The notes beneath the pieces are model-generated. The model was given only the letters and a program-made list of their open reading frames with translations. It was not told the origin of the DNA and did not search any database. From the NCBI RefSeq assembly GCF_003208435.1, contig NZ_QKMF01000002.1, positions 1-64,000 on the forward strand: a stretch of 64,000 nt of DNA, read 5' to 3'. This DNA is from Pelagimonas varians. GTDB lineage: Bacteria > Pseudomonadota > Alphaproteobacteria > Rhodobacterales > Rhodobacteraceae. The translations under genes were made by a program, and so were the position numbers. Every line of letters begins with the position of its first letter. Within the stretch, counting starts at the first letter, position 1. Shown piece by piece: positions 6,113-22,105 of the stretch.

Positions 6113-6148
6113 GTCTGTGGAATTGACGACTTCGCCATTCCTGCTTTG

Positions 6149-8623
6149 ATGAGCGCAACAAAGGTTCATAGCACGGATTCGAAAAACATGAGAGATCAAG
6201 CACGGGTAGTCGTTATTGGTGGGGGCATTGCGGGGTGCTCGGCATTGTACCACTTGACCCAAGAGGGATGGACGGACGTCATGCTGATTGAGCGTGACGA
6301 GCTGACATCCGGGACAACTTGGCACTCTGCGGCACAGGTGACGAATTTCGGAATGACGCAAACGATGGTTGGTTTGAAAACCCACTCTATCAACCTGTAT
6401 AAAGAACTGCGTGATGATCCCGAATACCCTGTTGGATATAACTTTGGAGATGGCGGAATTCGCCTTGCCAATACGCAAGCCCAAATGGATGGCTACAAAC
6501 ACTTTACCTCGATGGCCGCTGCAATGGACGTTGAATTCGAAGTGATCGATGCGGCGGAATGCGCGCGTCGCCATCCGCTAATTTCGACCGAAAACCTGCT
6601 TGGTGGCCTTTGGGATCCTACCGATGGCCATATTGACCCAGCGCAGCTGTGCCAAGCGCTGGCGCGCCGCGCGCGTTTGGCCGGTGCCGAGGTCAACCGT
6701 CACACGCCGGTCACCGGGCTGACCCAACATGCCGACAGCACTTGGACCGTGCATACGGAAAAGGGCGACGTGAAATGCGAAATCGTCGTGAATGCCGGCG
6801 GGTATCGTTGCAATGAAATCGGCGCGATGATGGGTGTACAGCATCCTGTCGCGTCGATGGAGCATCAGTATTTTTTGACCGAAGACATTCCCGCGATCAA
6901 AGAGGCAGGCCACCGTATCCCGCTGCTGCGTTGCCCGATCAGCGATTACTATTCGCGTCAGGAAAAGAACGGCTTGCTGATCGGTTTTTACGAACAAGAT
7001 TGCCGGACATGGGGCATGGATGGCATTGACCCCAAATTCACAAATGCGCTGTGCCCTGACGATTTGGACCGCGTGACCGACGTTCTTGAAGGTGCGTTCG
7101 AACGGATGCCGGCCTTGATGGAAACCGGTATCCGCGAGGTCGTGAATGGCCCGATCACTTACACCATTGATGGTGCGCCCTTGGTTGGCCCTATTCCGGG
7201 CAAACGCAATGCGTTTTGCATCATCGGTTTGCGCGCGGGCCTTGGCGAAGGCGGCGGACATGGCTGGCTGCTGGCTCAGCAAATTGTGCATGGTGAGGCG
7301 CAATATGACACTTGGGTAATCGATCCGCGCCGCTTTGTCGGACATTGTACGGTTGAGCTGACAGCGCTGAAGGCTGTCGAAGACTATCAAAACGAATTCC
7401 GGTTCCATTTCCCGCACGAACACCGTCCTGCCGGTCGCCCTATGAAGACAACGCCGCTAACCGCTGTATTCGAAGCTGATGGTGCGGAAATGGGCATTGT
7501 GAACGGCTGGGAACGGATTGATTATATCAAACCCTCGCCGGATTTCACCGAAACATTGGGTTTTCGCTTTAATGAGCTGCACGATGTGATCGCCGAAGAG
7601 GTAAATGCTGTCGCGACCGGCGTCGCCATGACCGAAGTGTCAGGGTTCAACCGGTTTGAAATGACGGGCGCGGATGTGCACAGCTTCCTTGATCGTATGA
7701 TGTGCGGCACGGTTACAAAACGCTGGGGACGTGTAGGTCTTGGATACCTGCTGAACGAACATGGGATGGTTAAGGGCGAAGCCACAATTGCCAACATTCC
7801 TGCCTCTGATCGTGGAGAAAACCGCGTTTGGTACGGGTCCGCCGCAGCATCCGAATTCCACGACATGGACTGGTTGCAAACGCATCTGCGCGAAGATGAG
7901 GACGTAACGATCCGGTCGTTGACCAATTCCCAGACGATCCTGATTTTGGCCGGGCCCAAATCCCGTGATGTTCTGGCTGCCGCCGCGCGCGGTGATTGGT
8001 CACGCGAAGCCTTTCCCTGGCTTTCGGTTCGCGAAACTCATATCGGTATCGCACCGGCCACGGTTTTGGGTATTAGTTTCTCAGGCGAATTGGCCTATGA
8101 AATCCACGTTCCAAACGAAAGCCTGCACGCGGCTTATGCTGCGCTTCGCAAAGCGGGGGCCGAGCATGGTCTGAGGTTGTTCGGCGCGCGTGCAGTCGAT
8201 TCCATGCGGATCGAAAAAGGGTTCTTGCATTGGAAAGCGGACATTCTGACCGAATTCGATCCATTCGAGACCAGCCTCGAGCGGTTTATCAAAATGGACA
8301 AGGGCGATTTTGTTGGCAAGGCGGCCCTTGAAAAACGGGTGAGTGCAGGCCCGCAGCGCAAGTTGGTGACGCTGGTGGTTGATACAAAAGATGCGCCAGC
8401 CCATGGCGGAGCATCGGTGCGCATTGATGGCCGCATTGTCGGGACAGTGACTTCAGGCGATTGGGGGCACCGCACGGGCCTGAACCTTGCCTATGCCTTT
8501 GTCGAGCCGGATTTTTCAGCGCCTGATACAGAAGTCACTATCGACGTGATCGGAAGCCCGGTTCCAGCCCGTGTCATCCCGGCTGGGCCGTATGATCCAA
8601 CTTATGCGCGGATGAGGGCCTAA
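6149..8623 (+). CDS. FAD-dependent oxidoreductase with GcvT domain, dimethylglycine/sarcosine dehydrogenase-like
   Basis: This 824-residue protein has the two-part architecture of dimethylglycine and sarcosine dehydrogenases. An N-terminal DAO-type FAD domain has VVVIGGGIAG near residue 20, and TTWHSAA carries the His (about residue 59) that binds FAD covalently in the family. A C-terminal aminomethyltransferase (GcvT) domain from about 430 (FTETLGFRFNELHDVI, GVAMTEVSGFNRFE) passes formaldehyde-level carbon to tetrahydrofolate. The probable reaction is oxidative N-demethylation of a methylated glycine or related amine. A TTG at 6146 precedes the ATG, and another candidate start is ATG 6188. 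The MttB-like gene downstream and the LysR gene upstream suggest a methylated-amine pathway. The exact substrate is not readable from sequence. Confidence 0.85.
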   Translation: MSATKVHSTDSKNMRDQARVVVIGGGIAGCSALYHLTQEGWTDVMLIERDELTSGTTWHSAAQVTNFGMTQTMVGLKTHSINLYKELRDDPEYPVGYNFGDGGIRLANTQAQMDGYKHFTSMAAAMDVEFEVIDAAECARRHPLISTENLLGGLWDPTDGHIDPAQLCQALARRARLAGAEVNRHTPVTGLTQHADSTWTVHTEKGDVKCEIVVNAGGYRCNEIGAMMGVQHPVASMEHQYFLTEDIPAIKEAGHRIPLLRCPISDYYSRQEKNGLLIGFYEQDCRTWGMDGIDPKFTNALCPDDLDRVTDVLEGAFERMPALMETGIREVVNGPITYTIDGAPLVGPIPGKRNAFCIIGLRAGLGEGGGHGWLLAQQIVHGEAQYDTWVIDPRRFVGHCTVELTALKAVEDYQNEFRFHFPHEHRPAGRPMKTTPLTAVFEADGAEMGIVNGWERIDYIKPSPDFTETLGFRFNELHDVIAEEVNAVATGVAMTEVSGFNRFEMTGADVHSFLDRMMCGTVTKRWGRVGLGYLLNEHGMVKGEATIANIPASDRGENRVWYGSAAASEFHDMDWLQTHLREDEDVTIRSLTNSQTILILAGPKSRDVLAAAARGDWSREAFPWLSVRETHIGIAPATVLGISFSGELAYEIHVPNESLHAAYAALRKAGAEHGLRLFGARAVDSMRIEKGFLHWKADILTEFDPFETSLERFIKMDKGDFVGKAALEKRVSAGPQRKLVTLVVDTKDAPAHGGASVRIDGRIVGTVTSGDWGHRTGLNLAYAFVEPDFSAPDTEVTIDVIGSPVPARVIPAGPYDPTYARMRA

Positions 8624-8687
8624 AACAGACAGCCTGTGGGCATCGAATGATTTTGGAGACAACCGTTAAACTCAGGAGCGACCAAGG

Positions 8688-8723
8688 ATGAAGCGATGCC
8701 CGTCAGGACAATTACGCATATGA
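8688..8723 (+). CDS. Possible 11-codon leader peptide overlapping the methyltransferase start
   Basis: ATG 8688 lies 8 nt after CAGGAG (8674-8679), the best ribosome-binding site in this gap, but opens a frame different from the methyltransferase. It reads MKRCPSGQLRI and stops with TGA at 8721-8723. That stop overlaps an in-frame methyltransferase ATG at 8720 as ATGA. This is the usual geometry for translational coupling. It could equally be coincidence. Confidence 0.25.
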   Translation: MKRCPSGQLRI

Positions 8724-10249
8724 CCGACACCATTGGCAAGCCGTCTCGGCGCAGTGGTGGCCGTGCGACACGTTTGGTTAAACGGGCGTCTAAACCGGTT
8801 ATTGACCCTTGCCCCCCCGGCCAGATCGGTGGGGCATACAGGCCGCTTTCGGAAAGCGATCTGCACAGAATTTACGACACGGCCTTGCGCCTTTTGTCCG
8901 AGCTGGGCATGGGTGAAGTCCCCGACAGGCTGGCGCAAGATCTGTTAAAAGCAGGGGCCGAAGACGACGGGCAGGGGCGTTTGACCTTTCCGCGCTCTTT
9001 GGTTGAGGATGCCAGCGCAAAGGCTGCCAAGACGTTCATCTTACATGGTCGTGATGACAACCGGTCAATCGAGGTGGGCGGCAATAAGGTCTATTTTGGC
9101 ACTGGCGGCGCGGCGGTTCAAACCCTGGACATGGACAATGGGCTGTATCGGCCATCCACCCTTGCGGACCTGCATGACTTTACCAGACTGCAAGACACAC
9201 TGGCGAATGTCAGCTGGTACACCCGCTGCTGCGTTGCAACCGATGTTCCGGATAACTTCGATCTGGATGTAAACACCGCCTATGCTTTGCTGCGCAATAC
9301 GACCAAACCAACGGCGACCTCATTCACGCTCGCTGAACATATAGATCCCATTGTGAAAATGCTGGATATCGCTGCGGGCGGCGACGGAGCGTTTTCAAAA
9401 CGCCCCTTCATGAAGGCCCATATCAGCCCGGTGATTTCCCCCATGCGCTACGGCGAAGATGCGGTTGATGTGGTTTATGACTGTATCCGGCACAACATCC
9501 CGATGTCTTGCATCACAGCAGCGCAGGCCGGTGCTACAGCCCCTGCAACAATGGCTGGTTTTTTGGCGCAGTCTTTGGCGGAAACATTGGCCAGTTTGGT
9601 GATGGTTCACGCCATTGCGCCGGGCTATCCTATGGTCTTTTCGAACTGGCCATTGGTTGTTGATCTGCGCACCGGCGCGTTTTCTGGCGGTAGCGGTGAA
9701 AGCACCGTTTTGAATGCGGCCTCTGCGCAATTGTCGAATTGGCTGGGGTTGCCTTCCGGTGTCGCCTGCTCAATGACCGATGCCAAGGCGATTGACGCGC
9801 AATATGGCGCTGAAAAGGGCATGAGCTCGCTCGCGGCAGCGCTGGCGGGCGGCAATTTGATTTACGAAAGCTCGGGCATGACCGCGTCTTTGCTCGGAGC
9901 CAGTTTCGAAGCCTTTGTGCTGGATGACGAAATGCATTCCAACACCTATCGCGCCCTGCGAGGAATAGAGGTGAGTGAAGACAATCTTGGGTTTGAGGCG
10001 ATCAAGGAAGCGGTTCTAGGGGCCGGTCACTTTTTAGGCGGGGATCATACAATCACAGCGATGGAGCGGGACTATTTCTATCCAACGCTTGCGGATCGAT
10101 CAGAGCCCAGAACATGGGCTGAAAACGGAGCGAAGGATGCTTGGACTTTGGCACGGGCGCGTGCGCGCGAGATTTTGACAACCCACCATCCCGAATATCT
10201 ATCGACAGATCAGGATGCTGAGATCAGGCGCCAGTTCAAAATCCTTTAG
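8696..10249 (+). CDS. MttB-like trimethylamine methyltransferase family protein (non-pyrrolysine)
   Basis: A 517-residue member of the COG5598 family, which contains trimethylamine and glycine-betaine:corrinoid methyltransferases. Family-like segments include LHRIYDTALRLLSELGMGEV, NKVYFGTGGAAVQTLDMDNG and YESSGMTASLLGASFEAFV. The frame reads through with no internal TAG, so it lacks the pyrrolysine codon of archaeal MttB and belongs with the non-Pyl members, of which MtgB acts on glycine betaine. No corrinoid protein or RamA-like activator is seen in the window. Translation may start at ATG 8696 or, better coupled to a tiny leader frame, ATG 8720. It lies 72 nt downstream of the demethylase and is probably cotranscribed with it. 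Confidence 0.82.
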   Translation: MPVRTITHMTDTIGKPSRRSGGRATRLVKRASKPVIDPCPPGQIGGAYRPLSESDLHRIYDTALRLLSELGMGEVPDRLAQDLLKAGAEDDGQGRLTFPRSLVEDASAKAAKTFILHGRDDNRSIEVGGNKVYFGTGGAAVQTLDMDNGLYRPSTLADLHDFTRLQDTLANVSWYTRCCVATDVPDNFDLDVNTAYALLRNTTKPTATSFTLAEHIDPIVKMLDIAAGGDGAFSKRPFMKAHISPVISPMRYGEDAVDVVYDCIRHNIPMSCITAAQAGATAPATMAGFLAQSLAETLASLVMVHAIAPGYPMVFSNWPLVVDLRTGAFSGGSGESTVLNAASAQLSNWLGLPSGVACSMTDAKAIDAQYGAEKGMSSLAAALAGGNLIYESSGMTASLLGASFEAFVLDDEMHSNTYRALRGIEVSEDNLGFEAIKEAVLGAGHFLGGDHTITAMERDYFYPTLADRSEPRTWAENGAKDAWTLARARAREILTTHHPEYLSTDQDAEIRRQFKIL

Positions 10250-10288: not shown

Positions 10289-11086
10289 TTATTGCTGAAC
10301 CTGCAAGGAGACATGCATTGTCTCAAGGGCATTGCCCAGCGTCATCCCCGATACAGGCGCGGCATCCTTTGAATCGCGTCCAGTTGCCAATCGCACATAG
10401 CGTTCATCCGGCGAGATACCGTTGGACACGTCGAAAGCGACCCATCCCAAGCCGTCTACATGGGCCTCGGCCCAAGCATGGCTGGCATCTTGATCTATTC
10501 TATCATCCATCATCAGATAGCCGCTGACATAGCGCGCGGGGATACCGGCGCACCGCAAGGTTGCGATAAAGATTTGCGCGTGGTCCTGACACACACCACC
10601 ACCAGCGCTCAGGGCGTCTTCGGCAGTTGTAGCGACGGTTGTCGCGGTTTGGATGTATGGGGTGGCCGCCAAAATCGCGGCGGACAGCCTATGCAATTCT
10701 TCTAGGGAACCGGCTGTATTTGTGATCAGCTTTGAAAGGGCCTGGATACCCGGTCCGGCCCTTGTCCGTTCGGTCGCCTGGACAAAGTGCCACAACGGCG
10801 CGGCACCATAAACCATGCCGTAGATACCGTCCGAAGAGCGCGTTTCAATATCACCAGAGACTGTCAACTCCATCTCCGTCGCGCCATCATGCGCTTTGAT
10901 CAGCATGCACTTGTTCCGGTATTGATCGAAAAATGTCAGCTCTTCGTCTCCGCCGATGACATCAACTTTCCAGTTGAGCACCGTTTGATGCCGATCAGAA
11001 GCGGGTATGAGCCGAACTTGCTGTAACCCGTAGAGCACCGGCGCGTCATAGGTGTATTTCGTCGTGTGCGAGATCTTGAGTTTCAT
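10289..11086 (-). CDS. Transglutaminase-like cysteine peptidase-fold protein
   Basis: A 265-residue protein starting MKLKISHTTKYTYDAPV, the beta-sandwich N-terminus typical of bacterial transglutaminase-like proteins. The catalytic triad is visible: Cys166 in GGGVCQDHA, His203 in ASHAWAEAHV and Asp219 in WVAFDVSNG. There is no signal peptide, so it should act in the cytoplasm. It is the third gene of a leftward operon behind an ATP-grasp gene and an alpha-E gene, with an 8-nt gap to the latter. Proteins of this class are thought to cleave or form amide bonds in the Anbu-linked peptide-modification system. The actual substrate is unknown. Confidence 0.85.
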   Translation of the reverse strand: MKLKISHTTKYTYDAPVLYGLQQVRLIPASDRHQTVLNWKVDVIGGDEELTFFDQYRNKCMLIKAHDGATEMELTVSGDIETRSSDGIYGMVYGAAPLWHFVQATERTRAGPGIQALSKLITNTAGSLEELHRLSAAILAATPYIQTATTVATTAEDALSAGGGVCQDHAQIFIATLRCAGIPARYVSGYLMMDDRIDQDASHAWAEAHVDGLGWVAFDVSNGISPDERYVRLATGRDSKDAAPVSGMTLGNALETMHVSLQVQQ

Positions 11087-11094
11087 TCGATTGC

Positions 11095-12036
11095 TTATCC
11101 ATCAAACCGGTAGTCGAGTTGGATTTGTGCGCCTATTGCATTGTTACTGCGCAAAAAATCACCAATGAACTGGTGTAGCCCGCCTTCGAAAATCGACGCG
11201 ATTGTGTGCTGGCGCATTTTGGTCACCTGTTGGTCGATCAATGCATGACATGGCATTGTGGCACCATAGTCTTTTTCTAGATAGCCTAGGTTGGCTCTGA
11301 TCGTCCGGCTTGCGAAATACAGCGACCGTGGGAAGCGGCTGTCAAGAATGACAAACTCGGCGATGCCTGAAGATGTCATTTCATTTGCGTTGAGCCAGCG
11401 GAACGACCGGTGTGCGGAAACGGACCGTAAAATTGTTTCCCACTGCACATTGTCCATCGCAGAGCCAATAAAGCTGGCCGAGGGCAAAAGCGTATAATAC
11501 TTGACGTCGATGATGCGGGCTGTGTTGTCGGCCCGTTCCAGTGCTGTTCCGATTTGGGCGAAATCATAGGCATCATTGCGCAGCATGGTTCCGTGCAGGG
11601 CACCGCGCACCAAAGCACTGTGGCGGCGGATTTCACCCAGCAAGGCCGGAAGATCGGTTTCTGGAATTGGCTTCTTGAGCGCGGCCTTCATCGCCATCCA
11701 GTTTTCGTTGACGGCTTCCCAAACCTCGGTGGTAAGGGCCGTGCGGACCATACGGGCATTGGTACGGGCGTTTTCAATCGCGCACATAACGCTTGAGGGG
11801 TTGCTGGTGTCGCGGAGCAGATAGTCGACGACATGTTGCGCTGTGTAAGTGTCGTATTTTGCATCATAACCGGCCCGAACCCCTGCGGTGGTGACAACCG
11901 ATTTCCATTCAGAATCGGAATCGCGTGAACGGGTCAACGCAATCCGAAACCCGGCTTCGATCAGACGGGCTGTGTTTTCGCTGCGCTCCAAAAAGCGGAA
12001 CATCCAATAAAGGCCACCTGCGGTTTTACCTAGCAT
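11095..12036 (-). CDS. Alpha-E domain protein
   Basis: A 313-residue all-helical protein of the alpha-E family (COG2307). The diagnostic N-terminus is LGKTAGGLYWMFRFLERSEN, followed by TARLIEAGFRIAL; later RSFRWLNANEM and SRFPRSLYF are also typical. The family has no known enzymatic residue set and is found almost only beside circularly permuted ATP-grasp and transglutaminase-like genes, as here. It is the middle gene of the leftward operon, 3 nt from the ATP-grasp gene. It is a full-length stand-alone version; a second copy is fused to an ATP-grasp domain in the gene at 17106-19529. Confidence 0.88.
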   Translation of the reverse strand: MLGKTAGGLYWMFRFLERSENTARLIEAGFRIALTRSRDSDSEWKSVVTTAGVRAGYDAKYDTYTAQHVVDYLLRDTSNPSSVMCAIENARTNARMVRTALTTEVWEAVNENWMAMKAALKKPIPETDLPALLGEIRRHSALVRGALHGTMLRNDAYDFAQIGTALERADNTARIIDVKYYTLLPSASFIGSAMDNVQWETILRSVSAHRSFRWLNANEMTSSGIAEFVILDSRFPRSLYFASRTIRANLGYLEKDYGATMPCHALIDQQVTKMRQHTIASIFEGGLHQFIGDFLRSNNAIGAQIQLDYRFDG

Positions 12037-12039
12037 TCC

Positions 12040-13467
12040 CTAGTCCTCCAAAACCCAAGTGTCTTTGGTGCCGCCGCCTTGGCTGGAATTCACCACAAGA
12101 GAGCCTTCTTTTAATGCGACGCGGGTCAATCCTCCGGGGGTGATGTCAATTCCGCCCGGCGAAACGAGCACAAACGGGCGCAGATCGACATGTCGGGGGG
12201 CAAGACCCTTTTTCTTGAAAATGGGCACGGTCGACAGCGACAAAGTCGGTTGCGCAATATAGTTGCCCGGGTTCTGTTTCAGCTTTTCCGCGAATTCGGC
12301 CACTTCGGCTTTGCTGGCCGCGGGCCCGACGAGCATGCCGTATCCGCCTGACCCATGAACCTCTTTGACCACCAGTTCCGCGAGGTTTTCGAGAACATAT
12401 TTTAACGTGTCCGGCTCGGAACAGCGAAATGTCTGCACGTTCTTCAAGATGGGCTTTTCGCCGGTGTAGAACTCAACAATATCGGGCATATAGGAATAGA
12501 TCGCCTTGTCGTCCGCAATCCCTGTTCCGGGGGCATTTGCGATCGTGATGTTTCCGGCGCGGTAGACATCCATAATACCGGGTACGCCCAGCATGGATTC
12601 GGGGCGGAAATTGAGCGGGTCCAGATAGTCGTCGTCCACACGGCGGTATAAGACATCAATCACTTGATAGCCTTGGGTCGTGCGCATGGCGATATGGCCA
12701 TCGATTACCTTTAGATCATGCCCTTCAACCAGTTCGACACCCATCTGGTCGGCTAAAAACGAGTGTTCAAAATAGGCCGAATTGTGGATGCCCGGCGTCA
12801 AAATCGCCACGGTGCAGTCGTCGCTGCAATTCACGGGTGCACAGGCGGCTAACGATCTGCGCAGGTTTTTAGGATAGTCGCTGACCGGCTGGACTTTGTT
12901 CTGGCTGAACAGTTCGGGAAACATTTGCAACATCGTTTCGCGGTTTTCCAGCATGTAGGACACGCCGGAAGGAGTGCGTGCATTATCCTCAAGCACGAAA
13001 AAATCATCTTCTCCGGTGCGCACGATATCCGTGCCTACGATGTGTGTGTAGACATTGCCCGGCGGGGTAAAGCCCATCATTTGCGGCAAGAAAGCGTCGT
13101 TCTTGGCGATCAGATCAATCGGAATTATTCCGGCGCGCAAGATTTCTTGACGGTTATATATATCGTGCAAAAACATATTGATTGCGCGCACGCGTTGTTC
13201 AATACCTTTGGACAGCTTGGTCCATTCACGGTTCGAAATGATACGCGGGATCAAATCAAACGGGATCAGCCGTTCCTGCGCTGCTTCTTGGCCGTAGACA
13301 TTGAAGGTGATACCCGTTCGCCTAAAGAAGGCCTCTGCTTCTTTAGATTTTTTCGCGAGCCGGGAAGGGTCTTCGTTGGAAAACCACCTCTGATACTTAT
13401 TATAAGGGTCACGTACGCCATCTGTTGCCAGCAGCATTTCGTCGAAGTGGTTTGTTTTTGATTTCAT
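12040..13467 (-). CDS. Circularly permuted ATP-grasp type 2 protein (stand-alone)
   Basis: The protein of 475 residues (start chosen at MKSKTNHFDEML) belongs to the circularly permuted ATP-grasp family (DUF404/DUF407, COG2308). Recognisable segments are TFNVYGQ, RGIEQR-like KGIEQRVRAINMFLHDIY, FVLEDNARTPSGVSYMLENR and, near the C-terminus, KEVHGSGGYGMLVGP and HVDLRPFVLVSPGG. ATP-grasp enzymes join a carboxylate to an amine using ATP, so a peptide or amide ligase activity is expected; its substrate is unknown. It heads the leftward operon with alpha-E and transglutaminase genes. The frame extends 26 codons further upstream, but that part is not family-like. No strong ribosome-binding site is visible. 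Confidence 0.88.
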   Translation of the reverse strand: MKSKTNHFDEMLLATDGVRDPYNKYQRWFSNEDPSRLAKKSKEAEAFFRRTGITFNVYGQEAAQERLIPFDLIPRIISNREWTKLSKGIEQRVRAINMFLHDIYNRQEILRAGIIPIDLIAKNDAFLPQMMGFTPPGNVYTHIVGTDIVRTGEDDFFVLEDNARTPSGVSYMLENRETMLQMFPELFSQNKVQPVSDYPKNLRRSLAACAPVNCSDDCTVAILTPGIHNSAYFEHSFLADQMGVELVEGHDLKVIDGHIAMRTTQGYQVIDVLYRRVDDDYLDPLNFRPESMLGVPGIMDVYRAGNITIANAPGTGIADDKAIYSYMPDIVEFYTGEKPILKNVQTFRCSEPDTLKYVLENLAELVVKEVHGSGGYGMLVGPAASKAEVAEFAEKLKQNPGNYIAQPTLSLSTVPIFKKKGLAPRHVDLRPFVLVSPGGIDITPGGLTRVALKEGSLVVNSSQGGGTKDTWVLED

Positions 13468-13777
13468 GGTTTGATCGTATCCAAAAAGTAGAGGACTGCA
13501 ATGGGCGACCGAGATCACAGACGCGCGGCCAAAACGAGCGGGCAAAAATTAATCGACAGGTTAAAAAATGGGCAAGTGCGGGGCTGGATCGGCTGAAATT
13601 CCTGCCTTTGTTGCATTTTTCCTGACTTAAATGTCTACCGTCACAAGGCCGAACTTCATCTGGTGGGGACATCAGAGCCGGGTAAGGTGCCGCATCTTTG
13701 ACCGTTTCGATCTGTCGGACACCGGTTCTGGTGCTATGCAAAGCAATGTCCATGATGGGCGCAAGGAGACAGCCAAC
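13468..13777. other. Divergent intergenic region of the ATP-grasp/DUF2126 operons
   Basis: About 310 bp separate the leftward ATP-grasp operon from the rightward DUF2126 operon. The frames of both neighbours extend into it, but without family-like sequence. The only clear signal is AAGGAG at 13762-13767, the ribosome-binding site of the rightward gene. Both promoters should lie here; I could not pick reliable -35/-10 boxes or an operator. Confidence 0.4.
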
Positions 13778-16700
13778 ATGTCAATCACAGCAAGCATCTA
13801 CCACCTGACGCATTATAAGTACGATCGACCGGTAACGCTTGGCCCACAATCTATTCGGCTCCGGCCCGCTCCGCATTCACGCACACGGGTTATTTCGCAC
13901 AGTTTGACGGTTTCGCCCTCGGCCCATTTTGTGAACCACCAACAAGACCCCTACGGGAATTGGCTGGCGCGGTTTGTGTTTCCTGAACCGGTGCGTGAAT
14001 TCAAGATCGAAGTTGATTTGGTCGCTGACATGTCCGTCTATAACCCCTTTGATTTCTTTGTTGAGGACAGCGCCAAGACCTTTCCACTACGCTATGATGA
14101 TGACATCGCGCCGGACCTGAGTATTTATCTGCGGACGGCCCCTGTGGGCCCGCTTTTGCAAAGGTTTTTGGCGTCGGTTCCGCGTTCACCGATGGTGACA
14201 ATCGACTTTCTGGTGATGCTCAACAGCCGTTTGGCCAATGAGATCAACTACGAAATCCGTATGGAGCCCGGTGTGCAAACCGCCGAGGAAACTTTGGGTC
14301 GCGTTGCAGGATCTTGCCGCGACACCAGCTGGCTTTTGGTGCAGGTATTGCGCAACCTTGGCCTCGCGGCGCGGTTTGTGTCGGGCTATTTGATCCAGCT
14401 GAAACCGGACCTGATCGCGATTGATGGCCCCGCAGGCACCGATACTGATTTCACTGATTTGCACGCGTGGGTCGAAGTGTATTTGCCCGGCGCAGGCTGG
14501 GTTGGTCTTGATCCGACATCGGGGCTTTTGGCGGGTGAAAGCCATATCCCATTGGCTGCAACCCCTGACTACCGCCACGCGGCCCCCATTTCCGGTGTGG
14601 CAAGCGCGGCAGATGTCGAGTTTTCCTTCGACATGAAGGTGACACGCACCGCCGAACACCCACGCATCACCAAACCGTTTTCTGACACCGCTTGGGATGC
14701 TTTGAATTCATTGGGGCATGCGGTTGATAAACGTCTTGAAGCAGGCGATGTCCGCCTGACCATGGGCGGCGAACCGACGTTTGTGTCGATTGATGATTTC
14801 GAAAGTCCGGAATGGAACTCCGATGCTGTTGGCCCAACCAAAAGGGCGCTGGCCGACACCTTGATGCGCCGTTTGCAGGGGCATTTTTCCAAGGGTGGTT
14901 TGCTGCATTACGGTCAAGGGAAATGGTATCCCGGCGAAACGCTTCCACGTTGGACCTTCTCGCTGTATTGGCGCAAAGACGGGGTGCCGATTTGGCATGA
15001 CCCTGACCTGTTGGCCCGCGAAGACACCAGCGAGGCAGTCGGCCCGCAAGATGCCCAAGCCTTGCTATCCGGGATTGCGGCCAGCCTGTCGGTGCCCGCG
15101 GAAAATGTGGTGCCTGCGTTTGAAGACCCTGCCGATTGGATCATCAAAGAGGGCAATTTGCCCGCCAACGTCACGCCCGAAAACTCCAAACTTGCCGACC
15201 CAGAAGAACGGGCGCGCATCGCTAAAGTGTTTGAGCGCGGGTTGAACACGCCGGCGGGCTACGTGTTGCCGGTGCAGCGCTGGCAGGCCCGCGCCTCAAG
15301 TCGTTGGATGTCGGAAGTCTGGAACATGCGTCGTGGCAAGGTGTTCCTTGTCGCGGGCGATAGCCCTGTAGGGTACCGCCTGCCGCTAGGCACCTTGCCG
15401 CATGTTCCCGAAAGCGATTATCCGTTTATCACGCCTCAAGATCCGACCGAGGCGCGCGCCCCTTTGCCTAAAGACCCGCCCAAAGCGGAGCGTCAGGAAC
15501 CCAAACAGGCAATTGCGCACCAAACGGGCGCAAGCGTCGGTCAGGAACAGGTTGCGCAAACCCTAAGCGATTTGGATGGCCGTGTGCGCACCGCCATCTC
15601 GGTCGAGGCACGGGACGGGCGGCTTTGTGTTTTCCTGCCGCCGGTTGAAACGCTTGAGGACTATTTGGAGCTGATTGCAGCTGTCGAAGCCGCCGCGCGG
15701 GAAACCGGCCGCAAGGTCTTGATCGAAGGATATGCCCCGCCGCATGATCCGCGCGTTGAAGTGATGCGCATAGCCCCAGATCCCGGAGTGATTGAGGTCA
15801 ATATTCATCCTGCGTCCAATTGGTCTGATTGTGTTGCCACCACGCAAGCTGTCTACGAGGAGGCCCGCCAGTGCCGTTTGGGCGCGGATAAATTCATGGT
15901 CGACGGGCGCCACACAGGTACAGGCGGCGGCAACCATGTTGTCGTCGGGGGCGCGACGCCTATTGACAGCCCGTTCTTGCGCCGTCCGGATCTGCTCAAA
16001 AGCTTGATCTTGTTTTGGCAACGCCACCCCAGCCTGTCCTATCTGTTTTCCGGCACATTTGTCGGCCCCACATCGCAGGCTCCGCGCATCGATGAAGCCC
16101 GTCATGATGTGCTTTATGAGCTTGAAATCGCGCTTGATCAGATCTGGCCCCCAACGGATGGCGCGGTGCCACCGCCTTGGCTGACTGACCGGTTGCTACG
16201 CAATGCGTTGATTGATGTGACCGGCAACACCCACCGTACCGAGATCTGCATCGACAAACTGTTTTCGCCCGATGGCCCAACAGGGCGCTTGGGCTTGGTT
16301 GAATTTCGCGGATTTGAGATGCCGCCAAATCCGCGCATGAGCTTGGCGCAACAGGTATTGTTGCGGGCGATCATTGCGCGCTGTTGGGAAAACCCGATCA
16401 GTGGCAACCTGACCCGTTGGGGCACCACTTTGCATGACCGTTTCATGCTACCCGCGTTTTTGTGGGAGGATTTCCTAGAGGTCTTGGGGGATTTGAAGGC
16501 CCATGATCTGGTGCTTGACCCTGCATGGTTCGAGGCGCAGGCCGAGTTCCGCTTTCCGTTCTGCGGAGAGGTCACTTATGAAGGGGCGACACTTGAGCTG
16601 CGCCAAGCCTTGGAGCCGTGGCATGTGATGGGCGAGACTGGTGCGATTGGCGGCACGGTCCGCTATACCGACAGTTCGTCCGAGCGGTTGCAGGTGACGC

Positions 16701-17101
16701 TGAAAGGGGCCAATCCAGATCGATATACGGTGACAGCCAACAGCCGTGTGGTGCCGCTGACTGCGACGCAAGCCAATGGCACGTTGGTGGGAGGCGTGCG
16801 TTTCAAGGCGTGGAAACCTCCGATGTCGTTGCATCCTGTGCTTGAAGTCGACGCGCCGTTGACGTTTGATATCTACGATACATGGACCGGAAAATCACTA
16901 GGCGGTTGCCGATACCATGTCGCGCACCCAGGGGGGCGCAATTTTGATACCTTCCCGGTCAACGGCAACGAGGCAGAGGCGCGGCGTTTGAGCAGATTTG
17001 AAAAACTGGGCCACACGGCAGGGGCTTATCAGCCTGCGCCAGAGAGGCCTCATCCGGAGTTTCCGATGACCCTTGATCTGCGCCGCAGACCCGGATTGTA
17101 A
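13778..17101 (+). CDS. Giant transglutaminase-like + DUF2126 protein
   Basis: The start at ATG 13778 is set by AAGGAG 8-13 nt upstream and by the family-typical [19 protein letters not shown]; the frame is open further upstream but unlike the family. The protein has 1,107 residues. Residues 1 to about 290 form a transglutaminase-like domain with Cys180 (GSCRDTSW), His229 (LHAWVEVY) and Asp245 (GLDPTSG). From about 325 the DUF2126 region begins with [14 protein letters not shown] and continues through [16 protein letters not shown] and [20 protein letters not shown]2126 has been proposed to hold a glutamine-synthetase-like carboxylate-amine ligase domain, so one chain may both make and break amide bonds. 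It heads a rightward operon with a fused ATP-grasp/alpha-E gene and another transglutaminase. Confidence 0.9.
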
Positions 17102-17105
17102 CCCT

Positions 17106-19529
17106 GTGCAAAAAACCGCCCCCCAAACGAGCGATCAATCGCGCCCAGACGACTTGTTGTTGGCATATGCCAATTATGTTGCTGCGGGGGGCGCGCATTC
17201 GGATGAAATGCTGGGCACAGACGGGCTGGTAAAACCTGTCTGGGCTTCGTTTTTTGACCACCTTAGTCGCCTGACGCCCGAAGACTTGTCCTTTCGGTTC
17301 GCCCGAGGCGATCAATACCTGCGCGATGCTGGGGTTCTTTTCCGCCAATATGATGAAACCCTGTCGACAGAACGCGAATGGCCGCTGAGCCATATTCCGG
17401 TCATCCTGGATGAGGATGAGTGGAAAAGCATTTCTGCAGGTTTGATTGAACGCGCCGAGTTTTTGGAATTTGTACTGCGTGATTTCTATGGCGACAATAC
17501 GCTTGTCAGCTCGGGGCAATTGCCTGCAACCTTGCTGAGCCAAAACCCCGCTTGGTTGCGACCAATGGTTGGCTTGGGCGGGGGGAGCGCGCATCTGCTC
17601 AATACCTTGTCGTTCGAAATCGGGCGGGGACCGGATGGAAGATGGTGGGTGATCAGCGATCTTGTCGAAGCGCCGTCAACTGCGGGTTTTGCGATCGAAA
17701 ACCGCATCGCAATGAGCCGGGTTTTCCCGGGATTTTTGAACCACAGCAACATTCACCGGCTTGCCGGATTTTTTCGCAACTTCCAGCAAACATTGTTCGC
17801 GGTAAAGGGGCGGACAAAAGGTGAAATTGCCCTTTTGTCGCCCGGTCCGATGAACCAGAACTATCCTGAGCACACATATATTGCCCGCTACCTTGGTTTG
17901 CTTTTGGTCGAAGGCGAAGATCTGATCGTCCAAGACGGCAAAGCCATGGTTCGCACGGTTGATGCTGCCAAACCTATCAGCCTGCTCTGGAACCGGTTGC
18001 CAAGTACGATGTTCGATCCGCTAGAACTGGACCCTACCTCGATGTTGGGGGCTGCCGGTTTGGTGCAGGCGGTGCGCGATGGCGCGCTGAAAACCGTGAA
18101 TATGGTTGGGGCAGGGGTGTTGGAAACCCGCGCCTTGATGGCCTTTTTGCCAAAAATTGCGAGGGCGCATCTTGGGCGCGGCTTGGCGCTTCCTAATATC
18201 GCAACATGGTGGTGCGGTCAGGAGGCGCAGCGCGATCATGTGTTGGCCCATAGTGAGCAAATGATGGTGGGCAATGCTTTTTCAACGCGCCCCTTGATGG
18301 CTGATCCCGCCACACTGACGATTGGCAATGGCCCAGACAATACTAGCGCTGACAGTCTGGAGAAAATGCTGCGCACCGCTGGCCGGGACTATGTTGGGCA
18401 AGAGGCGGTCACCTTGTCGACCACTCCGTCCTTTGAGAATGGTGAAATGGTTGCGCGGCCGATGTGTATTCGGATTTCACTGGGCCGCACGGCGGATGGT
18501 TGGGAGGTCATGCCAGGGGGCTACGCCCGTATCAGTGCTGGCGCGGATGCCAAAGCGATGGCCATGCAACAGGGGGGCAAAGTTGCTGACGTCTGGATCG
18601 CTAGCAAAACAAAGCTTCCTGCCAGCACCCTTTTGTCACAAGAAACGCAGGCGATCACGCGCCGGTCGACCCATGCCATTTTGCCAAGCCGTGCTGCGGA
18701 TAACCTGTTCTGGCTTGGCCGCTATGTCGAAAGGTCGGAGCAGAACATGCGCCAGTGCCGTGCGTATTATGCGCGCATTTCTGATGGCGCGGACCACAAT
18801 GATGCCATTCCGGCCTATATGCGCGCCCACCTCATGGACAATGTCGCCCCGAAGGCGCGCGATATCACGCAGCGCTTTGCTGAACCGCTTACCCTTGGCC
18901 TGCAATCGGCGTCACGGATAAACGACCGGTTTTCACCGGATGGGATGATGGCTTTGCGCGGTCTTGCAGGGCAAATTCAAGCGTTTCAAGGTCGATCATC
19001 TCTGATCGACGAAATCCCGGTCGAGATCAGCAGCCTTTTGCGTCAGACCACCGGTTTTTCGGGACTGGTGCATGAAAATATGTACCGGTCGGACGGCTGG
19101 CGATTTTTGAGCATTGGGGTGTCGTTGGAACGTGCGGCCAACATGTGTTCTGTTCTGGCGGCCTGTATCGGCAAGGATGCACCAACCGGTGCGCTGGATT
19201 TATCGCTTGAAATTGCGGACAGCGTGGGATCACACCGGTCGCGTTTTGTTGTTCTGGCGAACACTGCTTCTGTGGTTGATCTGCTTGGGCTTGATCTGCA
19301 AAACCCGCGCTCTATCCGGTATCATATATCGCGGACAAAAGATCATATTGCCCATTTACCGCGCCAAGATACCGGCCATCTTTTGTCCGAAGTGGCGCGC
19401 CAGACTTTGATGGTTGAAACGCAATTGGCGACAAGCCAGCCTGATGAAATCACACCCGAGGGGCTGATCCAAATGAGACAAGATATCTGGGATATTTCAA
19501 ACGCCCTGAATGAGTATTATTTGGTTTAG
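17106..19529 (+). CDS. Fused circularly permuted ATP-grasp + alpha-E protein
   Basis: The chain of about 807 residues combines two families that are separate genes at 12040-13467 and 11095-12036. Residues up to about 500 are ATP-grasp (GDQYLRDAGVLFRQYDE, then SAGLIERAEFLEFVLRDFY, and VLLVEGEDLIVQDGK-like text). From about 520 the alpha-E domain starts with RAADNLFWLGRYVERSEQNM. I place the start at GTG 17106, 4 nt after the upstream stop; a TTG at 17073 is also possible, and the ribosome-binding site is weak. Expected function is ATP-dependent amide ligation coupled to the neighbouring transglutaminase-like proteins. Substrate unknown. Confidence 0.88.
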   Translation: MQKTAPQTSDQSRPDDLLLAYANYVAAGGAHSDEMLGTDGLVKPVWASFFDHLSRLTPEDLSFRFARGDQYLRDAGVLFRQYDETLSTEREWPLSHIPVILDEDEWKSISAGLIERAEFLEFVLRDFYGDNTLVSSGQLPATLLSQNPAWLRPMVGLGGGSAHLLNTLSFEIGRGPDGRWWVISDLVEAPSTAGFAIENRIAMSRVFPGFLNHSNIHRLAGFFRNFQQTLFAVKGRTKGEIALLSPGPMNQNYPEHTYIARYLGLLLVEGEDLIVQDGKAMVRTVDAAKPISLLWNRLPSTMFDPLELDPTSMLGAAGLVQAVRDGALKTVNMVGAGVLETRALMAFLPKIARAHLGRGLALPNIATWWCGQEAQRDHVLAHSEQMMVGNAFSTRPLMADPATLTIGNGPDNTSADSLEKMLRTAGRDYVGQEAVTLSTTPSFENGEMVARPMCIRISLGRTADGWEVMPGGYARISAGADAKAMAMQQGGKVADVWIASKTKLPASTLLSQETQAITRRSTHAILPSRAADNLFWLGRYVERSEQNMRQCRAYYARISDGADHNDAIPAYMRAHLMDNVAPKARDITQRFAEPLTLGLQSASRINDRFSPDGMMALRGLAGQIQAFQGRSSLIDEIPVEISSLLRQTTGFSGLVHENMYRSDGWRFLSIGVSLERAANMCSVLAACIGKDAPTGALDLSLEIADSVGSHRSRFVVLANTASVVDLLGLDLQNPRSIRYHISRTKDHIAHLPRQDTGHLLSEVARQTLMVETQLATSQPDEITPEGLIQMRQDIWDISNALNEYYLV

Positions 19530-19532
19530 ACC

Positions 19533-20408
19533 ATGAACTACAACATTCGCCTCACTATCACCCACTCCTACGAGCGGCCCGCCGCAAATGGCCGTCATCT
19601 GATCCGTGTTTTGCCAAAATCAATTGCTGGCAGACAGCAGCTTTCGAACCACCTTTTGGAGGTGTTTCCCGAGGCTGAGACCCGGACCGATTCCGTTGAT
19701 TTCTTTGGCAACCGAACGACCACCTGCACGCACATTACACCGCATGATGATATGTCCATTCGGCTGGCCTGCCATGTTGAGATGCATCCCCCTCCGCCTT
19801 GGCGTGACGTATCACCGGACGCGGAAACTGTGTGCCAACAATGGCAAGCAAGCAGGGATCTCGGTCCGGAATCGCCAGTGCATTTCCTGGGCCCGACTTT
19901 GCGTTTGCCGCCGAATGCGGACATCGCCGCATTTGCGCGCGATCTACATGATCCCAGCGCCAGCGCCGCCAGCACTGTGATTACGATCGGTCAGGCTCTG
20001 TATGAGAAGATGGCGTTTGATGCCTCCGCGACCACTGTAGACACCAGCGCCGCTGAGGCGTTCAAGATAAAACGTGGTGTATGTCAGGACTTTAGCCACA
20101 TTATGATTTCGGCTTTGCAGGCTTTGGGCATTCCGGCAGCCTATGTTAGTGGCTACCTGCGCACCTTGCCGCCCGAAGGCGGTGTCAAACTTGCCGGTGC
20201 AGATGCGATGCATGCATGGGTTCGGGCGTGGTGCGGAACCGAGATGGGCTGGATCGAATATGACCCGACCAATGCCACCCTTGTCAGCACCGACCATATC
20301 GTTGTCGGCTATGGGCGAGACTATTCAGATATTTCACCAGTCAGTGGTCATTTGCGATCGTCGGGCAGCCAGCGCAATACACAAGCGGTTGATGTCACGC
20401 TCCTCTAG
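19533..20408 (+). CDS. Transglutaminase-like protein (second operon)
   Basis: A 291-residue protein starting MNYNIRLTITHSYERPA, with the beta-sandwich N-terminal domain and a C-terminal papain-like core. The triad is Cys184 (RGVCQDFSH), His227 (MHAWVRAW) and Asp244 (IEYDPTNAT). There is no signal peptide. The start codon is 3 nt after the stop of the ATP-grasp/alpha-E fusion, so the two genes are certainly cotranscribed. It is the counterpart of the protein at 10289-11086 in the leftward operon, giving the locus two parallel ATP-grasp/alpha-E/transglutaminase sets. Confidence 0.87.
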   Translation: MNYNIRLTITHSYERPAANGRHLIRVLPKSIAGRQQLSNHLLEVFPEAETRTDSVDFFGNRTTTCTHITPHDDMSIRLACHVEMHPPPPWRDVSPDAETVCQQWQASRDLGPESPVHFLGPTLRLPPNADIAAFARDLHDPSASAASTVITIGQALYEKMAFDASATTVDTSAAEAFKIKRGVCQDFSHIMISALQALGIPAAYVSGYLRTLPPEGGVKLAGADAMHAWVRAWCGTEMGWIEYDPTNATLVSTDHIVVGYGRDYSDISPVSGHLRSSGSQRNTQAVDVTLL

Positions 20409-20410
20409 AG

Positions 20411-20430
20411 ACACCCATCATTACGGGTGT
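20411..20430. terminator. Hairpin between convergent genes
   Basis: ACACCC (20411-20416) and GGGTGT (20425-20430) form a 6-bp stem around an 8-nt loop exactly between the convergent transglutaminase and Anbu genes. It has no U-tract on either strand, so if it terminates transcription it does so weakly or with help. Confidence 0.35.
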
Positions 20431-21164
20431 TAGCTGCGTTTATAACTTGGCAAGTGCATTAAGGCCGTGCGCAATGCATCGCCCCAGCCTTGGGAAATAG
20501 ACTGATAATACGCGTCGTCCGTTTCAATGCGTGGCTGATCACTAACCGCAAAGCTGTCTGTTTCATAGACTTGCAGATCCAGCGGCAAGCCAACGGACAG
20601 GTTCGCCTTGATGGTTGAATCAAATGAAACCACCAAGAGCTTGATCGCATCCTCAAAGCTCATATCGGGCTCATAGGCGCGGACCAGGATCGGTTTCCCG
20701 TATTTGGCCTCGCCAATCTGGAAAAACGGCGTGTCGTCGGTCACTTCGATAAAGTTGCCTTCTGGGTAGATCAAAAACAACGTCGGATTACCGCCCGCAA
20801 TCTGACCGCCGACAATCACGGATGCCGTGAATTTCGACGATCCGGTTTGACCGCCCGTGGCGCTGTTCTGGATCACTTCCTTTAGCGTCGCGCCAACCAA
20901 TCTTGCGACCTGAAACATAGTGGGTTGCTCAAGGATCGTGGGGTTGCGTTCCGAAACCGTTTTGGACCGTTCTTCAAGCAAACTGATCAAGGCTTGGGTC
21001 GTGGCAAGATTGCCCGCGGTCATCAGTGTTATGGTCCGCTCGCCGGGGACATTCCACGTGAACATCTTTTTGGTGGTCGAAAAGTTGTCAACCCCGGCGT
21101 TGGTGCGCGTGTCCGACATGAAAACAAGGCCACTGTTCAAGCGAAGGCCAACACAATAGGTCAT
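20430..21164 (-). CDS. Anbu, proteasome-like Ntn-hydrolase subunit
   Basis: The 244-residue protein begins MTYCVGLRLNSGLVFMSDTR, so removal of Met exposes a Thr nucleophile as in proteasome beta subunits and HslV. Counting from that Thr, Asp17 (SDTRTNAG) and Lys31/Lys32 (STTKKMF) sit where the family has its catalytic partners. GNLATTQALISLLEE and SKFTASVIVGGQIAGG follow the beta-subunit fold. The frame is open 15 codons further upstream, but only the MTY start gives the Thr1 terminus. Anbu genes are known to co-occur with ATP-grasp, alpha-E and transglutaminase-like genes, which surround it here. It probably forms a cytoplasmic self-compartmentalised or helical assembly; its substrate is unknown. 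Confidence 0.88.
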   Translation of the reverse strand: MTYCVGLRLNSGLVFMSDTRTNAGVDNFSTTKKMFTWNVPGERTITLMTAGNLATTQALISLLEERSKTVSERNPTILEQPTMFQVARLVGATLKEVIQNSATGGQTGSSKFTASVIVGGQIAGGNPTLFLIYPEGNFIEVTDDTPFFQIGEAKYGKPILVRAYEPDMSFEDAIKLLVVSFDSTIKANLSVGLPLDLQVYETDSFAVSDQPRIETDDAYYQSISQGWGDALRTALMHLPSYKRS

Positions 21165-21286
21165 TTCAGAGATCCAGATCAGATAAGACACCGTGCGATA
21201 TGCACGCAAGCTGTCTAGGATCGAATGCAGTTATATTCAATCAAGGAATGGGCGGCTTTTGAATATTAGCCCTAGGGGGGGCGGTG

Positions 21287-22105
21287 TCACGCGTCTGCGC
21301 GGCGCACATCAACGGATTGCTCTATCAGGTCCATCCATCCATAGGAGGTCAAAAAGGATGCATCCGAGGCATCGCGCCCGACACAAATACGAATGATTTC
21401 GGTGGGGATGGCCATACCAGTCGGGTCCACAATATACCACGCGTCCTCCAGATAGACCTCAACCACAGCGTGGAAATCCTGCGGCACCACATCGGGTGCA
21501 TACACACTGACAAAGCGGGCGGGAATGCCGGCCGCCCGTGCCAACGATATCAGAACATGGGCGTAGTCGCGGCAAACCCCTGCTTGGCTGCCAAAACTGT
21601 CGGTTGCGCTGGTTCCAGCATGGCTTATGCCATTGTCATAGGTGAAGTTTGTGTAGATCCAGTGGCTCATGTTTTCAATCAAGTCACCGCCGGACATGTC
21701 GCGGAACTGAGAGGAGACAAAGTCCAAAAACAGTTCTGATTGGCAATAGCGGGAAGGCATTAGATATTTGACCACCTCGCTGGGGATCTCCACCCATGGG
21801 GTCTGGCCGAGGCCGTTCAGTGCAATGGCAGGGCGGGTGACTTCAACCAACGCGGTGTAGCGACATTCAAACCGGGGTCCGGCTTTGATCCACCGGCGCG
21901 TACCCATGCCCTCTTCTCCAGAGATTTCACGATGCACAGACACATAGTCCAAGGTAAGCTGTGCCTCGTGACACTGCTGGGCACCGTCCGAAAACGCTTC
22001 GACCTGTAGTAACAAATCGCAAGGCTGGGACGTAGCATACAAAAGGTGGGTCTGAATTGACAAAAGCACGACGTGATCCAAACAAGTGGAAGGAGAGCCA
22101 AACAT
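21287..22105 (-). CDS. Transglutaminase-like protein upstream of Anbu
   Basis: A 272-residue frame with a transglutaminase core: Cys178 in QAGVCRDYAH, His212 in DFHAVVEVY and Asp227 in YIVDPTGMA. The N-terminal domain (LLLQVEAFSDG) is shorter than in the other copies. The start is uncertain. The ATG at 22105 overlaps head-to-head with the start codon of a small rightward frame, and a GTG at 22069 would give MLLSIQTH-like text closer to relatives. It is transcribed toward Anbu with a 122-nt gap and probably belongs to its operon. It is the fourth transglutaminase-like domain in 12 kb. Confidence 0.82.
   Translation of the reverse strand: MFGSPSTCLDHVVLLSIQTHLLYATSQPCDLLLQVEAFSDGAQQCHEAQLTLDYVSVHREISGEEGMGTRRWIKAGPRFECRYTALVEVTRPAIALNGLGQTPWVEIPSEVVKYLMPSRYCQSELFLDFVSSQFRDMSGGDLIENMSHWIYTNFTYDNGISHAGTSATDSFGSQAGVCRDYAHVLISLARAAGIPARFVSVYAPDVVPQDFHAVVEVYLEDAWYIVDPTGMAIPTEIIRICVGRDASDASFLTSYGWMDLIEQSVDVRRADA

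Follow-up and report, generated by a model that had tools for sequence, protein, structure and literature searches.

A Two-Module Anbu-Linked Locus in Pelagimonas varians with One Intact ATP-Grasp and One Probable Pseudoenzyme

Background

Iyer et al. are said to have proposed in 2009 a peptide-tagging system that joins a circularly permuted ATP-grasp and a GS-like ligase to an NTN peptidase and an alpha-helical domain. Their parts list reportedly comprised ATP-grasp, DUF2126, alpha-E and Anbu, and all four are present in the locus discussed here, positions 10289-22105 of a 64,000-nucleotide stretch of Pelagimonas varians (Rhodobacteraceae). We call this stretch the window; it lies on contig C2 of a 4.93 Mb genome. 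Structures of Anbu have been solved since 2017.

The canonical Anbu operon has four genes, for an ATP-grasp, an alpha-E protein, a transglutaminase (TGase) and Anbu (PMC6376114, PMC5666114). The ATP-grasp of Y. bercovieri releases phosphate from ATP, and the Anbu proteins had no peptidase activity on the substrates tried (PMC6376114); no Anbu substrate is reported in the papers we saw. Several lines of evidence tie such genes to nitrogen. In P. putida Anbu is up about 22-fold and the ATP-grasp about 16-fold in nitrate versus ammonium (PMC8050072), and in B. cenocepacia a cluster containing DUF404/407, DUF403, a TGase and a large TGase protein (I35_5080-83) is NtrC-dependent (PMC5491218). A correlation with urea metabolism is described in marine metagenomes (PMC3597751), and no change was seen under other conditions, as cited in PMC5666114.

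The original prediction for this locus, made from the sequence, saw seven genes forming two parallel ATP-grasp sets with different substrates, both feeding one Anbu assembly. We believe the locus is more probably a two-module peptide-ligation and hydrolysis system in which the second ATP-grasp is a conserved pseudoenzyme. Since that protein has lost the residues it would need, the two sets would be a working enzyme and a non-working partner, not two parallel copies.

The Second ATP-Grasp

Set A, or module A, consists of split genes read leftward for an ATP-grasp (AG_A), an alpha-E protein (AE_A) and a transglutaminase (TG_A). Set B, or module B, is read rightward and encodes a TGase-DUF2126 protein, a fused ATP-grasp and alpha-E protein (FUS) and a further transglutaminase (TG_B). 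Anbu and a fourth transglutaminase (TG_C) lie on the minus strand at the far side of set B. There are thus eight genes here and not seven. Every domain named earlier was confirmed far above the Pfam cut-off in the window proteins, namely two ATP-grasp, two alpha-E and four transglutaminase-like domains, DUF2126 and Anbu, and the split leftward set, the fused rightward set and the link to the Anbu system were borne out as well.

Both ATP-grasps are strong matches to CP_ATPgrasp_2. AG_A (12040-13467, minus strand) scores 550 bits, and FUS (17073-19529, plus strand) scores 373 bits with an Alpha-E match of 154 bits in the same protein. Against Protein Data Bank (PDB) entry 3n6x, AG_A gives 646 bits over nearly its whole length and FUS 186 bits. 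The difference between them is in the residues. In AG_A numbering, the free-standing ATP-grasps share E160-D-N162, D278-D279, D320-K321, K368, a glycine-rich loop (G374-G375-Y376-G377), D428-x-R430, and N460 with GGG-x-K468-D469. We scored E160, N162, K368, D428 and N460 over all loci fetched. We call these five catalytic because of their conservation and of what is known of the glutathione synthetase family: the E-x-N is presumably its metal motif and the Lys/Gly loop presumably its ATP loop.

All five residues are present in AG_A and in 41 of 42 free-standing ATP-grasps. All five are replaced in FUS. None is kept in 122 of the 131 fused ATP-grasps and a single one in the other 9, so no fused protein retains more than one; N162 and D428 are never kept, E160 is kept once, N460 twice and K368 six times. 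These counts omit short fragments (L073, and L096, a truncated fused protein that the script tagged as free) and count L170 as free, since alpha-E lies there in a frame apart from the ATP-grasp. Of the fused rows 130 are distinct in sequence, L024 and L089 being the same genome region, and 3 of the 131 have a gap in at least one of the five scored positions. The sole free-standing exception (L175, at G016:C26:240000-256000) is a divergent, degenerate ATP-grasp inside the Anbu operon of its genome, where the alignment is less sure. That genome holds an intact ATP-grasp elsewhere (L174), and the pair could possibly be a second origin of a catalytic and pseudoenzyme pairing.

FUS keeps the fold. 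An AlphaFold2 (AF2) model built from the window protein and 45 of 69 usable fused rows (alignment A2) has a predicted local distance difference test (pLDDT) score of 86 and a predicted template modeling (pTM) score of 0.84. Foldseek ranks 3n6x first for this model (TMt 0.85), followed by glutathione synthetases; a fold search gave no significant match for alpha-E, the best being NasR at E 0.13.

The rest of these loci is well preserved. Both forms of alpha-E keep the ER motifs in at least 93% of rows (42 free-standing and 127 fused), and many charged residues of DUF2126 do not vary at all among 145/145 rows. All four window transglutaminases have the Cys-His-Asp triad. Copies of the window itself (L001-L003) aside, the triad is found in 145/145 DUF2126 proteins and 4/4 TG_C rows; in TG_B the Cys and His are in 129/129 rows and the Asp in 127/129, the other 2 being gapped; and TG_A keeps the Cys in 24/27 aligned rows and the His and Asp in 27/27. 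Because triads, ER motifs and charged residues stay conserved in the same loci, the degeneration of the second ATP-grasp is, judging by these alignments, not a general decay of the loci. The three TG_A rows in which the catalytic Cys gives way to another residue or a gap are L151 (G317), L157 (G330) and L167 (G048), all from genomes without detected Anbu; TG_A activity and Anbu may go together.

Distribution and History of the Two Modules

We searched a family sample of 150 genomes (at least 95% complete) and a phylum sample of 249, with one DUF2126 genome common to both. Alpha-E was found in 113 family genomes (among the matches listed, which are complete for each genome listed), Anbu in 108 and DUF2126 in 50; the phylum figures are 146, 101 and 80. 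Every DUF2126 genome has an alpha-E (50/50 and 80/80), and in each one is of the free-standing type by match score, meaning the higher-scoring alpha-E match of that genome. Among genomes without DUF2126, alpha-E is present in 63/100 of the family (among the matches listed) and 66/169 of the phylum. Two alpha-E genes occur in 47 of the 50 family DUF2126 genomes and one in G017, G065 and G181, again among the matches listed. Anbu accompanies DUF2126 in 47/50 family and 51/80 phylum genomes. None was found in the remaining 29/80 with the window Anbu as query, and some may have been missed because only this one protein was used. Ten of those 29 were read at residue level (G188, G231, G262, G306, G309, G317, G329, G330, G374 and G377), and all ten have an intact free-standing ATP-grasp.

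The ATP-grasp tree (86 rows over 380 residues, from every one of the 32 tagged as free plus 54 of the 129 fused ones) places 31 free-standing proteins on one side and the 54 fused proteins with the truncated fragment L096 on the other. Free-standing and fused proteins are each spread over several classes of Pseudomonadota, and a Nitrospirales record (L142) holds the two next to each other. This argues for an old split, so the window sets would not be a local duplication, an idea the tree rules out; on this sequence evidence the free-standing and fused ATP-grasps are old, separate clades. The composition of the region does not suggest a recent foreign island, since the GC content (0.51-0.61 per kb over 10-22 kb) is close to that of the surroundings. 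Set B is closest to that of G009 (DUF2126 protein 85%, FUS 64%) and set A to those of G015 and G279. These separate nearest relatives fit separate histories for A and B; a horizontal transfer of set B is not shown by them because silent sites are near saturation.

Weighing the Explanations

In favor of two parallel working ligases, two strong CP_ATPgrasp_2 proteins do lie in back-to-back sets beside one Anbu gene. However, the original prediction was to fall if one ATP-grasp had lost its ATP-binding residues, and FUS keeps none of the five scored, nor does any fused relative keep more than one. In the family, moreover, set B mostly lies away from set A, and it is present in genomes with no detected Anbu, so we regard parallel ATP-grasp ligases as very unlikely. 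There may still be two ligases of unlike kinds, set A contributing its ATP-grasp and set B its DUF2126. FUS might instead be what remains of a duplicated set A, in decay and about to be lost. Its key residues are gone and it diverges faster than its neighbors (window versus G008: AG_A 84% identity, DUF2126 protein 73%, FUS 44%). But its place between TGase-DUF2126 and TG_B is conserved, with all three in 125 of 145 DUF2126 loci; it shows its own invariant positions, W380 and G382 among them; its ER motifs are kept; and its alpha-E half has a ratio of nonsynonymous to synonymous substitution rates (dN/dS) of 0.19 against G009, while silent sites in the ATP-grasp half are saturated and give no ratio. 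The residue loss is common to a whole deep clade. The open frames of the FUS rows are no separate evidence here, since the rows were taken from open frames. Decay of this kind seems to us very unlikely.

The strongest competitor is that set B is an unrelated system that came by chance to lie next to an ordinary Anbu operon in this genome. In the family a free-standing-type alpha-E is within 10 kb of DUF2126 in only 5/50 genomes (G000, G027, G019, G017 and G065), counting loci on different contigs as apart; the two sets have different closest relatives; and G002, of the same genus as the window, has a plain set A with one alpha-E. Against this, DUF2126 without alpha-E was never seen in our samples, and the juxtaposition recurs in 33/80 phylum genomes. 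A simple random-position model, which ignores shared ancestry, gives 4e-6 for the family and 3e-55 for the phylum. There are four different adjacent layouts of A and B (the window, L044, L067 and L043), and hybrid loci (L064 in G001, L049 in G017 and L051 in G065) join DUF2126 directly to ATP-grasp, alpha-E and Anbu with no FUS, TG_A or TG_B. One of these is again in the same genus: in G001 Anbu, alpha-E and ATP-grasp run leftward and TGase-DUF2126 rightward. The hybrids suggest that the DUF2126 transglutaminase may replace TG_A in function. We consider chance adjacency unlikely, and the claim that the juxtaposition is more than accident holds up. The expected association of set B with Anbu in relatives held only in part. 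Most DUF2126 genomes do contain Anbu, but in 45/50 of the family the free-standing-type alpha-E is not within 10 kb of DUF2126, and 29/80 of the phylum lack a detected Anbu.

There are points that weigh against a catalytic module with a pseudoenzyme partner, and they should be stated together. Published pull-down experiments with the operon proteins of Y. bercovieri did not detect a complex (PMC6376114). Alignment of the fused proteins is poor around K368 and the glycine loop, which leaves E160, N162 and D428 as the weightiest of the five, and a protein without the five residues might still bind nucleotide. The parts of set B are separable. FUS is missing from 3/50 family DUF2126 genomes by alpha-E count, and none was seen in the fetched loci of those three (G017, G065 and G181). 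FUS and TG_B are not both in the fetched stretch in 20/145 DUF2126 loci; several of these are cut by contig ends, and L004, L049, L051, L064, L074, L084, L114, L124 and L156 are not obviously so. G048 has FUS and TG_B (L166, L167) with no DUF2126 or Anbu match in the genome, and its intact ATP-grasp and set A lie elsewhere without Anbu. Anbu is in the flanks of only 1/80 named DUF2126 loci (57/80 have nearly full flanks), that one being L067 of Pseudooceanicola pacificus, which has the divergent A/B layout of the window with Anbu in its normal place. In most genomes the intact ATP-grasp was judged from the free-standing-type alpha-E match and not from ATP-grasp residues, and the co-occurrence and proximity figures ignore shared ancestry. 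The fold evidence for DUF2126, taken up next, is weak.

DUF2126 and a Possible Mechanism

By sequence DUF2126 has no solved relative beyond its TGase part. The protein was modeled from an alignment (A3) of the window and 36 of 80 named loci, and the model is middling (pLDDT 73, pTM 0.70). In Foldseek the TGase part is clear, and for the rest several GS-family structures come up (probability 0.69-0.97, E 0.011-0.14), so even the best match is weak. These matches agree with the circularly permuted GS-like ligase that was reportedly proposed for this domain, and they are no proof of it. Toxin rows in the same list, at a probability of about 0.1, are noise. DUF2126 is possibly a GS-like ligase on the strength of this model, and it would then be the likely ligase of set B. 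The TGase-DUF2126 gene of L052 (G014) falls into several fragments that lie in different frames and is perhaps broken or mis-sequenced.

A mechanism can be suggested. Module A (AG_A, AE_A, TG_A and usually Anbu) would hold the working ATP-grasp amide ligase, with AG_A forming an amide bond on a peptide. Module B (TGase-DUF2126, FUS and TG_B) would be accessory. Its ATP-grasp, joined to alpha-E in one protein, would be a pseudoenzyme, and any bonds that the module itself forms, of a second kind, would be made by the GS-like DUF2126 domain. FUS could serve as a substrate-presenting or scaffold subunit that pairs with AG_A/AE_A or with DUF2126, a step we find possible while leaning slightly away from it. 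The transglutaminases and Anbu would cut, release or transfer the product, and the system would serve growth under nitrogen limitation, as the published expression data suggest. Any particular substrate that might be named now would very probably be wrong. A more ambitious version makes FUS an obligate non-catalytic partner of the intact ATP-grasp and alpha-E in a hetero-oligomer, in which the ATP-grasp and the GS-like DUF2126 ligase act in turn on one peptide, the transglutaminases and Anbu form the release side, and the G016 pair is a second origin of the pairing. We offer this version as a doubtful one.

If FUS is a pseudoenzyme that accompanies an intact ATP-grasp, then reconstitutions from a single operon, such as the negative pull-downs, may have missed a partner in two-module species, and the system would have to be rebuilt with both modules. 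For mutation, E160 and N162 of AG_A, together with the putative GS-like site in DUF2126, would then come before the ATP site of FUS.

The Rest of the Locus

Start codons given here are our readings of the sequence. TG_A (10289-11086, minus strand) has Bact_transglu_N and Transglut_core domains and the triad Cys166/His203/Asp219. AE_A (11095-12036, minus strand) matches Alpha-E at 289 bits and has the ER motifs E17R18 and E167R168. The likely start of AG_A is the ATG at 13467; its listed open reading frame (ORF), 12040-13545, begins at a TTG at 13545. A divergent intergenic region (13468-13777) separates the modules. TGase-DUF2126 (13778-17101, plus strand) probably starts at the ATG at 13778 within an ORF of 13631-17101 and has Bact_transglu_N, Transglut_core and DUF2126 (1314 bits), with the triad C180/H229/D245. 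The FUS ORF, which starts at 17073, overlaps its stop, and the true start of FUS may differ from that position. TG_B (19533-20408, plus strand) is a transglutaminase by Pfam with an intact triad, and TG_C (21287-22105, minus strand) matches Transglut_core. In L145 and L148 the order within set B is changed, TG_B coming before FUS. A sigma54/NtrC promoter was sought between the modules. A TGG-N9-TGCW match lies at 13737-13752 on the minus strand, but it is no promoter evidence because the window has 25 such matches against 27 expected.

Anbu (20430-21164, minus strand; likely start ATG 21164, ORF 20430-21209) is a proteasome-family protein by Pfam and matches the solved Anbu structures 5loy, 5nyj, 5nyf, 5nyw and 5lox at E 4e-86 to 5e-70. 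As predicted, it has Thr1 (after the Met), Asp17 and a Lys pair at 31-32, which aligns with the Lys pair of 5nyj. The ATP-grasp, alpha-E, TGase and Anbu genes of the window are all on the minus strand, with Anbu cut off from the other three by set B and so not beside TG_A. In G015, G008 and G279 the ordinary order TG_C, ATP-grasp, alpha-E, TGase, Anbu runs in a row, with TG_C directly upstream of the ATP-grasp. Our distance tables cover 110 of the 113 family alpha-E genomes (without G016, G032 and G085) and 106 of the 108 Anbu genomes (without G016 and G147), and alpha-E and Anbu are at most 1.5 kb apart in 99/106 pairs. Given that row and the 8.4 kb between AE_A and Anbu in the window, the position of Anbu here looks derived. 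The Anbu matches of G031, G139, G092 and G112 each have one in-frame stop; decay or sequencing error is possible.

The neighboring genes were considered as clues to function and set aside. To the left, at 6146-10249, are a DAO+GCV_T gene (dimethylglycine-dehydrogenase-like) and then a gene of the trimethylamine methyltransferase (MTTB) family, and to the right are CorA and malonyl-CoA genes. None of them adjoins set A in the set-A loci that were retrieved first; weak GCVT, MTTB or MatB matches occur near set B in some loci. A Stealth-type protein (Stealth_CR1/CR2) is encoded at 1790-2839.

Comparison with Known Systems

We did not find the fused ATP-grasp described as inactive in the excerpts of the literature searched, and we do not claim the pseudoenzyme as novel. 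The best reading, in our opinion, is that the system is of a known peptide-ligation kind, to which the window adds a member whose gene order is unusual. Its ATP-grasps resemble the glutathione synthetase and glutathionylspermidine synthetase fold, AG_A by its sequence match to 3n6x and the fused protein by fold. They differ from it in being circularly permuted, as the Pfam name states, and the fused one has none of the scored active-site residues. The I35_5080-83 cluster of B. cenocepacia is like the window in having an ATP-grasp, an alpha-E, a TGase and a large TGase protein together, the last of which we infer to be a TGase-DUF2126. It is unlike the window in that the passages of its source name no Anbu, whereas the window adds FUS, TG_B, TG_C and Anbu. 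The canonical Anbu operon is the nearest relative of module A: AG_A, AE_A, TG_A and the window Anbu are its members by sequence, but here Anbu stands beyond set B, 8.4 kb from AE_A.

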